Source of the DNA: Alphaproteobacteria bacterium
GTDB taxonomy: Bacteria > Pseudomonadota > Alphaproteobacteria > SMXQ01
Reading direction: 5' to 3'
Assembly (NCBI GenBank): GCA_009380075.1
Contig: WHSO01000014.1
Span: 1-61,594, forward strand
DNA: 61,594 nt
The position numbers and the translations under genes are program-made. Position 1 is the first letter of the stretch. The number at the start of each line of letters is the position of its first letter. This document shows positions 37,821-42,610 of this stretch, one piece after another. The notes beneath the pieces are model-generated. The model was not told the origin of the DNA, made no database searches, and worked only from the letters and a program-made list of their open reading frames with translations.

Positions 37821-37899
<79 letters not shown>

Positions 37900-38332: not shown

Positions 38333-38361
38333 TGACCTGCCCCCAGCAAGTGGTCCAACCC

Positions 38362-39183
38362 CTATGAGAGAGTTTGGTGCGGGTTGTAGCCCTGCTGTTC
38401 AGGCTGGAGCGTAGCGTAAGCCTGCACAGCAGGGCGTGGCAAGATCGCTTGCGGGGCCGGTGGTTGGTAACCCAGCGAGCTGTGCGGTCGGATGGTGTTG
38501 TAGTGCTGTCGCCAGCGTTCGATGAGCACCTTAGCCTCCTTCAACGTGTGGAAGATCTCTCCGTTGAGCAGCTCATCGCGGAGCTTGCCGTTGAAGGACT
38601 CGTTGTAGCCGTTCTCCCAAGGGCTGCCTGGCTCGATGAACAGGGTCTTTACGCCGAGCCGGCCGAGCCAGTCCCTGACCACCTGGGCGGTGAACTCCGC
38701 CCCGTTGTCGGACCGGATGTGTTCCGGGGGCCCATGCTTGATGAAGAGATCGGATATGCAATCGAGAACGCTCTCCGAAGTCAGCTTGCGGTCAACGTGG
38801 ATCGCCAGGCTCTGGCGGGTGAACTCGTCGATCACGGTGAGCATACGGAACGCCCTGCCGCCATGGGTCCGGTCCATGACGAAGTCGTAGGACCAGACAT
38901 GCCCGGGCCGTTCGGCCCGAAGCCGCACACAGGATCCGTCGTTCAGCCACAGACGGCCTCTCTTCGGTTGTTTCCGGGGGACCTTGAGCCCCTCCCGCCG
39001 CCAGATGCGCTGAACCCGCTTGGCATTCACATGCCAGCCATCGGCTCTCAGCAGCGCCGTGATCCGGCGATAGCCGTAGCGGCCATAACGGCTGGCCAGC
39101 CGGACGATATCCCTGGTCAGGGCATCCTCGTCAGGCCTGCCATACGGCGGCTTGCGCTGGGTCGAACGGTGCTGGCCGATCAC
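38362..39183 (-). CDS. IS3-family transposase OrfB (integrase catalytic domain)
   Basis: Catalytic half of the IS3 transposase. 273 residues are counted from the first ATG, but the frame stays open upstream into the end of orfA ([20 protein letters not shown]), so it is normally made as an OrfAB fusion by -1 frameshifting. The HTH_21-like region is [17 protein letters not shown] residues: Asp in [10 protein letters not shown], Asp in [10 protein letters not shown], Glu in [14 protein letters not shown]. The end, [13 protein letters not shown], is typical. The frame is intact. Confidence 0.94.
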
Positions 39184-39257
39184 CGAACAGGCACGCCGCT
39201 CAGAGACCTTCAGCTTGCCCCGCAGGTGATCGACACAGCGCCGGCGGCGGGCGGGGC

Positions 39258-39536
39258 TCAGTAGTTTCCCGAGAGCGCCTCTTTGAGGATCAGCTTGTCC
39301 AGCGTCAGATCGGCCACGGCCGTCTTCAGCCGGGTGTTCTCTCGCTCCAGATCCTTCAGGCGGCGCGCCTGATCGACCTTCATCCCGCCGTACTCACGGC
39401 GCCAGCGGTAGTAGCTCTGTTCGGAAACACCCAGACGACGGCAGATCACCCCCGTCTTCTCGCCCTGCGCCAGGGCCACTTCGGCCTCGCGCAGCAGGCC
39501 GATGATCTGCTCCGGGGTATAGCGTTTGCGGCTCAT
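39258..39536 (-). CDS. IS3-family transposase OrfA (HTH protein)
   Basis: DNA-binding half of the transposase, 92 residues from ATG 39536 behind AAAGGAGGAACGA. The helix-turn-helix of the transposase_8 type is visible ([16 protein letters not shown], then [20 protein letters not shown]), followed by a leucine-zipper-like coil ([20 protein letters not shown]). It ends [11 protein letters not shown], overlapping the orfB frame where programmed frameshifting would occur. Confidence 0.94.
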
Positions 39537-39626
39537 TCGTTCCTCCTTTTCAAAGGTCAGAATGCACCACACTCTCTCATTCAGCCCGGACCACTTTCAG
39601 GGGGGAAGGTCACGAGCCCTTTACCT

Positions 39627-40034
39627 TTAGATGGAATAGATATTCTCCAAGGGTCCGACTCCCATTTCGAGTGCTTGCACTGATCGGGAATTGTATTTGT
39701 ATTTAAGGACGTAATTTAGAACCATAATCTGTGTTTGTAACTGAACTACATACGCTTGAGTTTTTGCGTCCAGCTCAAATAGGCCTCCTGCCTTATCAAC
39801 AACAGGCTTAAAATTTTGTTCGAAAAATTGTGAAAGTTCACCCACCTTTTTGTCTAAGCTTGTTTCGTTTGGGCACGCACTTAATGTCTTCAAAACGAGA
39901 GATCGTCCAGCATTAACGTAGGTCTCAACATTTCGCCTATAGATATAGCGAAAATGCTCAAAGTCCCTTCCATGCCGTAAAATCCATTCGATGAAGAGCT
40001 CAATGTGATCGACTGGTGGCGCACTATCAACCAC
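39627..40034 (-). CDS. Unrecognised 135-residue island protein
   Basis: Low-G+C gene with GTG start 40034; a GGAGG lies 13 bases upstream, a slightly long spacing, so the start is uncertain. The product is soluble, mixed charge and probably all-helical (IELFIEWILRHGRDFEHFRY, VGELSQFFEQNFKPVVDK, YVVQLQTQIMVLNYVLKYKY). No family is recognised. It is divergent from the XRE regulator over a 130-bp gap that holds the regulator's palindrome, so the two may be co-regulated. Base composition unlike the chromosome marks it as acquired DNA. Confidence 0.55.
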   Translation of the reverse strand: MVDSAPPVDHIELFIEWILRHGRDFEHFRYIYRRNVETYVNAGRSLVLKTLSACPNETSLDKKVGELSQFFEQNFKPVVDKAGGLFELDAKTQAYVVQLQTQIMVLNYVLKYKYNSRSVQALEMGVGPLENIYSI

Positions 40035-40129: not shown

Positions 40130-40164
40130 TTGTATGTTTTAATAGTGTGTAGTAAATACTACAC
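40130..40164 (+). promoter_or_regulatory. Promoter/operator of the XRE operon, apparently leaderless
   Basis: An 18-bp perfect palindrome, GTGTAGTA-AA-TACTACAC, occupies 40147-40164 and touches the ATG at 40165. TTGTAT (40130-40135) and TAAATA (40153-40158) are 17 bp apart, which would start the transcript at or near the A of the ATG. No Shine-Dalgarno is present. The palindrome covers the -10 box, as expected for autorepression by the encoded HTH protein. Confidence 0.65.
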
Positions 40165-40518
40165 ATGTTTAGCTTTGGCAACCATATTCGCGAGCTACGC
40201 GAGAAACGCCGTAAGGCCGACCGTGCCTTCTCTTTACGCCAGGTAGCCGGCCGCGTTGGAATCGAGCCAACGTACCTTAGCAAGATTGAACGGGGAGAGT
40301 TGGCGCCGCCTTCGGAAGCAACGACGCGGCGTCTCGCAGTGGAACTCGGGGATGATCCTGACGTATTGCTCGCAATGGCGGGCAAGGTTTCCAGTGAACT
40401 TCTGGACATTATCCGTAAGCGCCCGCAAATGTTCTCAGAACTTATTCGGCAACTGAAAGACGCGCCCGACCACGCGATCCTCAGGATTGTGAGAGAGGTC
40501 AGGGACGGCGACTGGTGA
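40165..40518 (+). CDS. XRE-family HTH transcriptional regulator
   Basis: DNA-binding protein of 117 residues. The HTH_XRE/Cro-type domain covers residues 5-70 (FGNHIRELREKRRKADRAFS, LRQVAGRVGIEPTYLSKIER, GELAPPSEATTRRLAVELGD). The rest (LLDIIRKRPQMFSELIRQLK, then HAILRIVREVRDGDW) is a helical tail that I recall as well conserved in a group of phage/island-borne XRE proteins. It abuts an 18-bp palindrome that is its likely operator. The next gene starts 11 bp after its stop, so the two form an operon. Confidence 0.88.
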   Translation: MFSFGNHIRELREKRRKADRAFSLRQVAGRVGIEPTYLSKIERGELAPPSEATTRRLAVELGDDPDVLLAMAGKVSSELLDIIRKRPQMFSELIRQLKDAPDHAILRIVREVRDGDW

Positions 40519-40529
40519 AAGGAAAAGCG

Positions 40530-41507
40530 ATGCTTACACTTGAGCAGAATCAGCTGGTATTCCGATTTCCGGAGGTCCACCCGGACGCGGTTTGCTCCAT
40601 TGAATTTCAACGCACACTCCGCGTTCCTGACGACGGGAAGAAGTATCCACTGCCTCCAGGCTTGGGGCGTTTCCCGCTACGTCATATTGACGACTACGCC
40701 ACAAATGTCCCCGACGATTGGCTAAAGCGCGGTGGGGTCATCATGCCCATGCATCAGGCAGAAGCTATGTGGATTCGATTCCACAGCGACTATCCCTGCG
40801 CTGTCAAAGTAGCTACGGGTAAAGTCTGCGCTGTGAGCGGCGATACATGGAGGGGGCATCTAAATCGCGATCCTCAGGATTACGTCGTCACGCCGACGCA
40901 ACCCTGGCTTGATGGCTATTGTGTGGAAAAGGGGATAATTCGCCAGTTTGTCGCGATGCCGTTGGGACAAGGCTATTCGGTTGAAGAGCAACTCACCGGT
41001 ATGGGCGATGTCGGAGGCGTTCAGCTTCTTGTGTATCCGATGAAACGAAAAGCCTATGAGACACAACGGGCACGGCAAGAGGCTTTAGTTCAACCGCTTG
41101 CGTCGAAGGGAATGGAAATGGGAATAGCTCCAGGTGGTCAAATGCGGCAGGAAATCTATGACGACCCCTACGGCCTTGAAGCATGGGAGCAACGCCGGGG
41201 TATTCGCTGCTTCGTAGCTGTTTGCAACTCGCCACAATGGATCGGAATTACAGGCGAGTGCCCTCCTACAGAGCCGCCGACTGCCAGAAAATACACGGAT
41301 ATGGGGCTGCCTTGGTTCGACTATTACGATGGCGATTCGAAAGCGATTGAAGGTGCAGTCAAACTCGGAAAAATCTCATCCGTGGTGGCAACCGCTAAGA
41401 AAAAAGAGGCGAAGGCGTTGCCTGAAAATGACAGTTGCGAGCCCGCTGATGTAAGAGTGATCCGACGCCGTCGTTCTGACGAAGTTCGAGAATTTGGGAT
41501 CTGGTAG
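40530..41507 (+). CDS. Uncharacterised 325-residue protein paired with XRE regulator
   Basis: ATG 40530 is preferred because AAAGGAAAAG precedes it; a GTG at 40515 overlaps the regulator's stop. No signal peptide, membrane helix or nucleotide-binding loop is visible. Distinct blocks are RTLRVPDDGKKYPLPPGLG, PLRHIDDYATNVPDDW, MPMHQAEAMWIRF, PCAVKVATGKVCAVSG, DYVVTPTQPWLDGYCVEKG, IIRQFVAMPLGQGYSVEEQL and VGGVQLLVYPMKR. From memory, such blocks occur in hypothetical proteins of other bacteria, but I cannot name a family. A basic tail (RVIRRRRSDEV) ends it. The lower G+C marks acquired DNA. Carriage with a dedicated repressor on an island suggests a defence, stress or mobile-element role; this is inference only. 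Confidence 0.8.
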   Translation: MLTLEQNQLVFRFPEVHPDAVCSIEFQRTLRVPDDGKKYPLPPGLGRFPLRHIDDYATNVPDDWLKRGGVIMPMHQAEAMWIRFHSDYPCAVKVATGKVCAVSGDTWRGHLNRDPQDYVVTPTQPWLDGYCVEKGIIRQFVAMPLGQGYSVEEQLTGMGDVGGVQLLVYPMKRKAYETQRARQEALVQPLASKGMEMGIAPGGQMRQEIYDDPYGLEAWEQRRGIRCFVAVCNSPQWIGITGECPPTEPPTARKYTDMGLPWFDYYDGDSKAIEGAVKLGKISSVVATAKKKEAKALPENDSCEPADVRVIRRRRSDEVREFGIW

Positions 41508-41728: not shown

Positions 41729-41772
<44 letters not shown>

Positions 41773-41811: not shown

Positions 41812-42168
41812 TTAGACGTAAGCCGCCAACGGCTCAATCTCGTCGTAGCCGCCGTCTCCGGATTCCGCCTTGGCGACGTCGTAGGCCCCCTGCAAGTTGA
41901 GCCAGTAGCGGTCCGACTGCCCGAACACGCGGCCGAGCCGGATCGACGTGTCGGCGGTGATCGCGCGCGTGCCGGCGATAATGCCGGCAATGCGGTTCTG
42001 CGGCACCCGGGCCGACCTGGCGAGGCGGTAGGGCGTGATGTTCAGTTCGCTCAGAATGTCGCGCAGGATTTCGCCGGGCGCGGTGGGAGCAATGCGCTTG
42101 CCGGTGACGATGTCCGAAAGGTCGATCCTCCCGGCATCGAGATCGCGCCGATTGATCGCGGTGGCCAT
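41812..42168 (-). CDS. higA: HigA-family addiction-module antitoxin
   Basis: Antitoxin of 118 residues from ATG 42168 (AAGGAGGAACATGAA upstream). The HigA pattern is PTAPGEILRDILSELNITPYRLAR, then an XRE helix-turn-helix (VPQNRIAGIIAGTRAITADT) and SIRLGRVFGQSDRYWLNLQ. It should neutralise the HigB toxin encoded 41 bp upstream and repress their common promoter. Toxin-first order is typical of higBA. It lies 39 bp outside the island's right repeat. Confidence 0.92.
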   Translation of the reverse strand: MATAINRRDLDAGRIDLSDIVTGKRIAPTAPGEILRDILSELNITPYRLARSARVPQNRIAGIIAGTRAITADTSIRLGRVFGQSDRYWLNLQGAYDVAKAESGDGGYDEIEPLAAYV

Positions 42169-42209
42169 TTCATGTTCCTCCTTTTCCGCGGACGCCGTAA
42201 CAGAACGCC

Positions 42210-42497
42210 CTAATGATAATCCTCGATCGCAACGTTCGAGGCATTGCCGTCCTTCCAGGTAAAGGTGATGCGCCACTGCCGGTTGATGCGGATGGACCAG
42301 CGGGCCGATCCTCCCAGCTTTTCGAGCCGGTTGGACGGCGGCAGGCGCAGGTCATCGATCCTCTCCGCGGCATCGATCTGGGCCAGCCTGGCATGGGCGC
42401 GGACCTGCATATCCTGTTGCAGTCCCTTGACCATGAAGCCCTTGAAGACGGCGGCCGTCGCCTTGTCCCTGAACGACGTGATCACGAACCGGACCAT
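42210..42497 (-). CDS. higB: HigB/RelE-type toxin
   Basis: Ribosome-dependent mRNA endonuclease family, 95 residues from ATG 42497; the start is placed so the protein opens with the familiar FVITSFRDKATAAVFKG. The middle has HARLAQIDAAERIDDLRLPP and NRLEKLGG. The RelE-fold end WSIRINRQWRITFTWKDGNA followed by VAIEDYH holds the conserved Arg/Trp and the C-terminal Tyr-His. It is upstream of and co-oriented with higA, and both appear intact. Confidence 0.92.
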   Translation of the reverse strand: MVRFVITSFRDKATAAVFKGFMVKGLQQDMQVRAHARLAQIDAAERIDDLRLPPSNRLEKLGGSARWSIRINRQWRITFTWKDGNASNVAIEDYH

Positions 42498-42610
42498 ACC
42501 ACGTCCGCATAGGTACGCCAAGCGTAATTAGTGATGTGAAGCGTCACTATGCCTTGCGGTCCGCGACGAGGGCGGACAATGCGGTCCGCAGCGCCTGCGT
42601 CCTGACCCCG

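Follow-up and report, generated by a model that had tools for sequence, protein, structure and literature searches.

The window, a stretch of 61,594 nucleotides from an alphaproteobacterial genome assembly (contig WHSO01000014.1), carries two adjacent genes on its + strand that form the subject of this analysis. The first (40165–40518) encodes a putative repressor of 117 residues, here called XRE, with a clear Pfam HTH domain (HTH_31, E = 7e-11) and a score of 8e-10 against the PADLOC CapH model. The second (40530–41507) encodes P325, a candidate effector of 325 residues with an ATG start and no known family; an alternative GTG start at 40515 would give 330 residues. The two genes are separated by 11 bp, and a hairpin with perfect 14 bp arms 3′ of P325 (41538–41572, + strand, z = −5.0) is the likely terminator of the operon.

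The pair lies in an element of 3.87 kb bounded by a perfect 44 bp direct repeat, which is the duplicated 3′ end of a tRNA-Phe gene. The tRNA gene itself (GAA; 37821–37896, + strand; ARAGORN), the integration target, ends within the left repeat (37856–37899), and the right, attachment-site-like copy (41729–41772, no strand assigned) is 100% identical. The DNA within the element is of low GC content (44–57%, against about 65–75% upstream) and comprises an IS3-type insertion sequence, a divergent 135-residue reading frame and the XRE–P325 pair. The insertion sequence (38340–39604, − strand; transposase reading frames 39258–39572 and 38362–39183) has imperfect 41 bp terminal inverted repeats. No recognisable integrase, methyltransferase or restriction endonuclease was found between the 44 bp repeats. 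Since the attachment repeats enclose no such integrase and the IS3 element shows no clear target-site duplication, the integrase may have been lost through IS-mediated deletion. The host genome has a single copy of P325, whereas 59 of the 60 relatives searched have none, and in a genome of the same genus different DNA adjoins the tRNA-Phe gene. The tRNA island described in an earlier note on this DNA is real, as judged by the perfect repeat, the drop in GC content and this absence from relatives. Just beyond the right repeat, a gene for a HigB-like toxin (Pfam HigB-like_toxin, 5e-15) and an HTH antitoxin gene were found at 41812–42521 (− strand), so that a classical toxin–antitoxin pair stands beside the island in the tRNA-Phe region.

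The divergent reading frame (39627–40034, − strand) had been taken in the earlier note to share the control region of the pair. The reading frame exists, and it matched no family in Pfam, NCBIfam, PADLOC or PHROGs and no plasmid relative. As a third component it was rejected, being not conserved near P325 in homologous loci, and it is treated here as a neighbour outside the module. What stands of the earlier interpretation is a portable, apparently autoregulated cassette of an XRE regulator and a single effector.

Conservation of the pair and of its predicted operator

Relatives of P325 were found at no fewer than 576 places in bacterial genomes, on six plasmids, in two phage records and on at least 25 viral contigs; on the viral contigs a scan with a single sequence found none, whereas alignment-based searches did. 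At least 15 named phyla are represented among the 80 closest genome loci, and P325 identity across phyla is about 50–60%. In a tree of these 80 loci, phyla cluster locally, yet 23 label changes are needed where the minimum possible is 14, and P325 has therefore likely spread by both inheritance and transfer (or, for some metagenome-assembled genomes, through bin contamination). Occurrence is patchy, with carriers making up 8/385 genomes of the class of the window and 10/294 and 22/400 genomes in two other phyla. Of 30 carriers searched, 29 gave one P325 match and the remaining one gave two pieces of one gene. Two P325 genes look broken: a frame break lies near the N-terminus in one bacterial contig (G017 C414; L003, L154), and the P325 gene of phage Rctr197k (L011, 5950–7058) is split into two overlapping reading frames.

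The same XRE gene lies directly upstream of P325 in 114 of 139 distinct loci. The two genes are adjacent and co-oriented with a typical gap of 10–35 nt, an arrangement shared with type II toxin–antitoxin pairs, and their conservation as a pair across phyla indicates that both genes are real. XRE and P325 distances are correlated (Mantel r = 0.75; best of 999 permutations 0.25), which shows that they form a unit but not that they are in contact, as co-inheritance alone would yield such a correlation. Close relatives aside, no other neighbouring gene recurs across P325 loci. The operon of an XRE regulator and a 325-residue protein proposed in the earlier note is borne out by the reading frames, the HTH_31 match and the conserved pair. 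That note had named homologues scattered without an XRE partner among housekeeping loci as a finding that would speak against its reading; the partner is instead conserved at the 114 loci.

A near-perfect palindrome, TGTGTAGTAAATACTACACA, occupies 40146–40165 (+ strand) and is the predicted operator; its final base, an A, doubles as the first base of the XRE start codon. Searched with up to two mismatches, it is the sole such site in the 3.54 Mb host genome. The operator consensus was matched at 15 or more of its 20 positions in 80 of 91 XRE upstream regions, compared with 0.24% of shuffled sequences, and the palindrome abuts the XRE ATG exactly in 54 loci and abuts or overlaps it in most. A promoter-like site is present in the window sequence at 40130–40158 (+ strand; TTGTAT, 17 nt, TAAATA), and its −10 hexamer TAAATA forms the centre of the palindrome. 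The −35 hexamer TTGTAT is weaker than the TTGACA of the family, and the position of the site agrees with the TTGACA conserved in homologous loci: a TTGACA-like −35 hexamer (at least 5/6) was found 15–19 nt from the palindrome core in 36 of 80 loci, where 1.9 would be expected. A Shine–Dalgarno-like AAGGA precedes P325 at 40519–40523 (+ strand). Sequences of this kind stand before 82 of 89 P325 genes and before none of 80 XRE genes, and by this pattern the XRE message looks leaderless and P325 translation appears to use a Shine–Dalgarno site. The simplest reading of these sequence features is that XRE is a repressor of itself only, with a leaderless message. A conserved palindrome covering the predicted −10 box and the start codon would, if XRE binds it, allow autoregulation of the kind known from type II toxin–antitoxin pairs.

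The shared C-terminal tail

XRE proteins end in a short conserved motif, V/I-R-D-G-x-W, which is present in 92 of 94 of them; in the window it reads VRDGDW and is encoded at 40498–40515. Many relatives of P325, including distant ones that have no XRE partner, end in V-R-[D/E/N]-G-x-[W/F]. The full motif was found within the last 25 residues of 53 of 139 P325 proteins and of none of 1813 other reading frames, and the shorter VR[DEN] in 94 of 139 compared with 2% of other reading frames. P325 of the window carries a degenerate version of this tail, VREFGIW, and degenerate forms (VREFGIW and VREM or VREY variants) are found throughout its own clade.

The tail occurs almost exclusively on the pair. 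In 26 carrier genomes its codon pattern marks XRE or P325, apart from three other in-frame matches in reading frames of 9, 24 and 39 residues, which are very short or unlikely. A longer tail pattern was matched in three of the 385 genomes of the class, all three of them P325 carriers (p = 6e-6). Among the 25 loci without XRE, 21 have no tailed partner upstream, and in the other four a different small protein just upstream of P325 carries the tail (VRDGNW, VRDGKW or VRTGKW); in the background, 12 of 20,230 reading frames bear the tail, a count that includes these four partner genes and duplicates. The four partners are probably DNA-binding proteins, as judged from their sequences: two are ribbon–helix–helix-like (one on a weak NikA-like score in Pfam, the other on visual inspection) and two, homologous to each other, are Cox/HTH-like on weak evidence. 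The partner can thus be exchanged with the tail kept. If the weak ribbon–helix–helix-like and Cox/HTH-like assignments hold, the sharing of one tail by these proteins and XRE would be comparable to the exchangeable DNA-binding domains of type II antitoxins. Such a pattern would be expected if the tail were the element by which the DNA-binding partner recognises P325.

A match between two flexible tails may also have another use. The main rival is that the shared VR[DE]GxW tail is a turnover signal common to both proteins, read by one host protease or adaptor, so that the two are degraded in step and the tail is not a binding element. HipB offers a precedent, since its tail, likewise with a Trp at the end, serves as a Lon degron and has no effect on HipA binding (PMC3376134), and both AlphaFold models show a flexible P325 tail. 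We nevertheless consider this explanation unlikely. A general host degron would be expected elsewhere in the proteome, but in the 26 genomes hardly anything other than XRE and P325 carries the tail, a restriction that weakens the proposal; in unrelated upstream partners the tail is retained only where P325 is the neighbour, and its conservation extends across some 15 phyla.

The P325 fold and its genomic neighbourhood

P325 gave nothing significant in Pfam, NCBIfam, PADLOC, PHROGs or the PDB sequences, in agreement with the earlier note, which could place it in no family; the patterned blocks remarked on there are conserved motifs of the whole family. Against PADLOC v2.0.0 no family was matched at E values up to 10, and the family libraries searched gave no toxin, enzyme or defence signature. 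Neither a HipA kinase domain nor a protease family was matched in Pfam or NCBIfam, and the sequence has no HExxH zinc-protease motif. Fused domains were tried as a clue to function and rejected, as the long reading frames of three relatives (L101, L102 and L059) contain no Pfam domain; the extension in L102 looks like a spurious read-through, and the relative in L059 (1066–2601) has, in place of the usual tail, about 150 extra C-terminal residues without a Pfam domain.

Two AlphaFold models were confident, with pLDDT values of 89.6 for P325 of the window and 88.3 for a relative from a viral contig with the canonical tail. Both have a β-rich core; a loop near residue 190 is disordered, and the C-terminus is flexible. 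For the tail the two models give pLDDT values of 54–61, and docking of the tail in cis was therefore rejected as unsupported by AlphaFold. Neither Foldseek nor VIA gave a confident PDB match for the two models: the best Foldseek hit had an E value of 0.07, and VIA gave Z = 4.4 (r.m.s.d. 4.4 over 130 residues) for the window model and Z = 3.9 (r.m.s.d. 3.2 over 84 residues) for the second. Ig-like β-sandwich proteins (p53, TEAD, RhoGDI and VAP; Z of 4.4 or less) were rejected as kin, the similarity being weak and the arrangement a common one. A match to a metabolic enzyme, raised in the earlier note as another outcome that would speak against its reading, did not appear in these structural searches.

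Closer structural matches were found among uncharacterised proteins of large eukaryotic DNA viruses. Harvfovirus proteins A0A3G5A5W8 and A0A3G5A0P2 match most of P325 (Foldseek E about 1e-20 to 1e-21, TM 0.63–0.72, 21–24% identity) and Hyperionvirus A0A3G5A6D8, named for a ubiquitin-like domain, matches with E values of 6e-9 to 2e-8; Pithovirus, iridovirus and nudivirus proteins match more weakly. The Harvfovirus and Hyperionvirus proteins differ from P325 in being about 600 residues long or in being named for the ubiquitin-like domain. In BFVD, the giant-virus relatives A0A3G5A6D8 and A0A3G4ZU36 are named ubiquitin-like and RING-type, hinting at a link between the P325 fold and the ubiquitin system in eukaryotic viruses.

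A β-rich, Ig-like model without an evident catalytic set could belong to a ligand-binding or sensing co-factor, with P325 acting as co-repressor or anti-repressor of XRE in a genetic switch that controls the element or a process elsewhere, and with no toxic or defensive effector. The self-only operator suits such a switch, and for a two-gene switch of the Bro-Xre type control over a third component has been suggested (PMC2701414). Here, however, no third regulated gene is conserved and the genome contains a single operator, and phages and plasmids include P325 copies that have no XRE; we think this explanation unlikely.

The viral records bear on a further alternative, in which the pair is a phage or plasmid accessory for superinfection exclusion or control of competing elements, with DNA or particles that enter the cell as the target of P325, in the manner of a defence rather than a toxin–antitoxin system. 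P325 is present in the huge-phage records LR756511 (L012) and KX853510 (L011) and on viral contigs of 300–600 kb, some of them with XRE, and P325-like folds recur in the large eukaryotic DNA viruses. Most copies found, in contrast, lie on bacterial contigs with no recurring phage genes nearby, and on balance this explanation is unlikely. The contigs of 300–600 kb, several in number, are IMG/VR records (among L097–L128 and L226–L248), and other tailed partners are present in some of the viral records.

Defence genes were counted around P325 in 28 genomes at an E value of 1e-30, with generic mad2 and mad3 matches excluded on both sides and with families rather than proteins tallied, models of the same name being taken as one protein. 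Among 139 genes near P325 at least 7 were defence genes, compared with none among 133 genes taken from remote parts of those genomes (Fisher p = 0.008), and the clustering of homologues with defence genes that the earlier note had proposed to look for is to this extent present. The proteins concerned are two type I methyltransferases, DpdF, PsyrT, a type IV restriction enzyme, AbiEi and AbiEii. The nearest neighbours of P325 and genes 3–6 kb away did not differ clearly in defence content; as whole islands carry defence genes, the 3–6 kb genes make an imperfect control and distant regions were used. The likeness of the two zones implies that the cassette sits on defence-bearing islands and is not tied to one system. 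A few homologous loci have restriction–modification genes nearby, never as a constant partner. On the Bradyrhizobium barranii plasmid NZ_CP096257.1 (L010, 5971–12792), the genes that come after a P325 relative without XRE encode an M12 metallopeptidase and two further proteins, one of the caspase family and one trypsin-like; the setting recalls the conflict systems of bacteria that are based on proteases.

Defence genes are a minority among the immediate neighbours. Many flanks are metabolic (solute-binding proteins and methyltransferases), as would suit a housekeeping or metabolic pair that lies on the island by chance, but this is very improbable and already contradicted by the distribution, namely the patchy occurrence, the mobile-element context and the same pair in unrelated contexts, together with the lack of an enzyme match in the searches above.

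Proposed mechanism and comparison with known systems

There is good support for the module and for its layout. Our preferred reading, to which we give about an even chance, is that XRE–P325 is an autoregulated, toxin–antitoxin-like repressor–effector module borne by mobile elements, in which the XRE tail mimics the C-terminus of P325 and so binds it. XRE would bind the palindrome over the −10 box up to its own start codon and switch off the bicistronic transcript, from which XRE would be translated at a leaderless mRNA end and P325 at its Shine–Dalgarno site. The V-R-D-G-x-W tail of XRE, imitating the C-terminus of the P325 family, would contact P325 by inserting into a site otherwise taken by a P325 tail, either its own or that of another subunit. 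The insertion would keep P325 inactive and couple repression to the ratio of P325 to XRE. Were XRE lost or outcompeted, on entry or loss of an element, under phage attack or in stress, P325 would be both released and made. We infer from the anatomy, mobility and neighbourhood of the module that free P325 would most likely arrest growth or otherwise act against an invader. Several results weigh against this reading: the searches gave P325 neither a functional signature nor a confident PDB match, its tail has low pLDDT values in both models and is degenerate in the clade of the window, 21 of the 25 loci without XRE lack a tailed upstream partner, and defence genes are a minority among the immediate neighbours.

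A wider reading is offered more tentatively. The pair may represent a new family of toxin–antitoxin-like conflict modules in which interchangeable repressors (XRE, ribbon–helix–helix and Cox-like) capture an effector by copying its C-terminal tail, the effector having a β-rich fold that is without a recognised PDB relative and common to large eukaryotic DNA viruses, and the modules serving against invaders or in element control across at least 15 phyla and huge phages. A structural link of this kind would join a bacterial conflict module with the biology of eukaryotic viruses. A widespread cassette with an effector that no searched library recognises is in any case a clear gap in annotation, and the shared tail, six residues of a protein of 117, is a direct and simple handle on mechanism. 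If it is a recognition element, it would show how regulators of unrelated origin come to be recruited to a single effector; it also provides a sequence flag by which new partners could be found.

As far as the libraries and papers show, there is no earlier description of the effector family, of a tail that is shared and can be swapped, or of the structural link to viruses; the literature searched, which took in few subscription journals and preprints, yielded no description of the P325 family. The layout is of a known kind, that of repressor–effector pairs. In restriction–modification systems, the C protein regulator comes first, with a palindrome at its own promoter and a leaderless mRNA, and the effector follows on the same transcript (PMC4824078). 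XRE–P325 resembles these systems in gene order, palindrome and predicted leaderless layout of the regulator, and differs in having neither methyltransferase nor restriction enzyme and in the sequence of the palindrome, which is not that of the C-boxes. We know of no VRDGxW tail among C proteins. With the XRE–ImmA/IrrE (COG2856) and CBASS CapH–CapP pairs the module has in common an XRE protein, here one that scores against the CapH model, followed by its putative functional partner; unlike those partners, P325 has no HExxH motif, and no CBASS genes were seen beside it in the window.

HipBA is by analogy the nearest precedent in anatomy, and the paper that describes it is also the main caution. 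HipB is an XRE antitoxin encoded upstream of a large effector, and it has a disordered tail with a universally conserved final Trp that touches a surface pocket of HipA in the crystal; when measured, the tail made no contribution to HipA binding and acted as a Lon degron (PMC3376134). P325 differs from HipA in having no HipA kinase domain, the HipB tail as printed there has only the final Trp in common with XRE and no VRDGx motif, and a matching tail on the effector is not described in PMC3376134. The likeness lies in a small XRE protein encoded upstream of a large effector, an operator at the promoter and a flexible XRE tail that ends in Trp.
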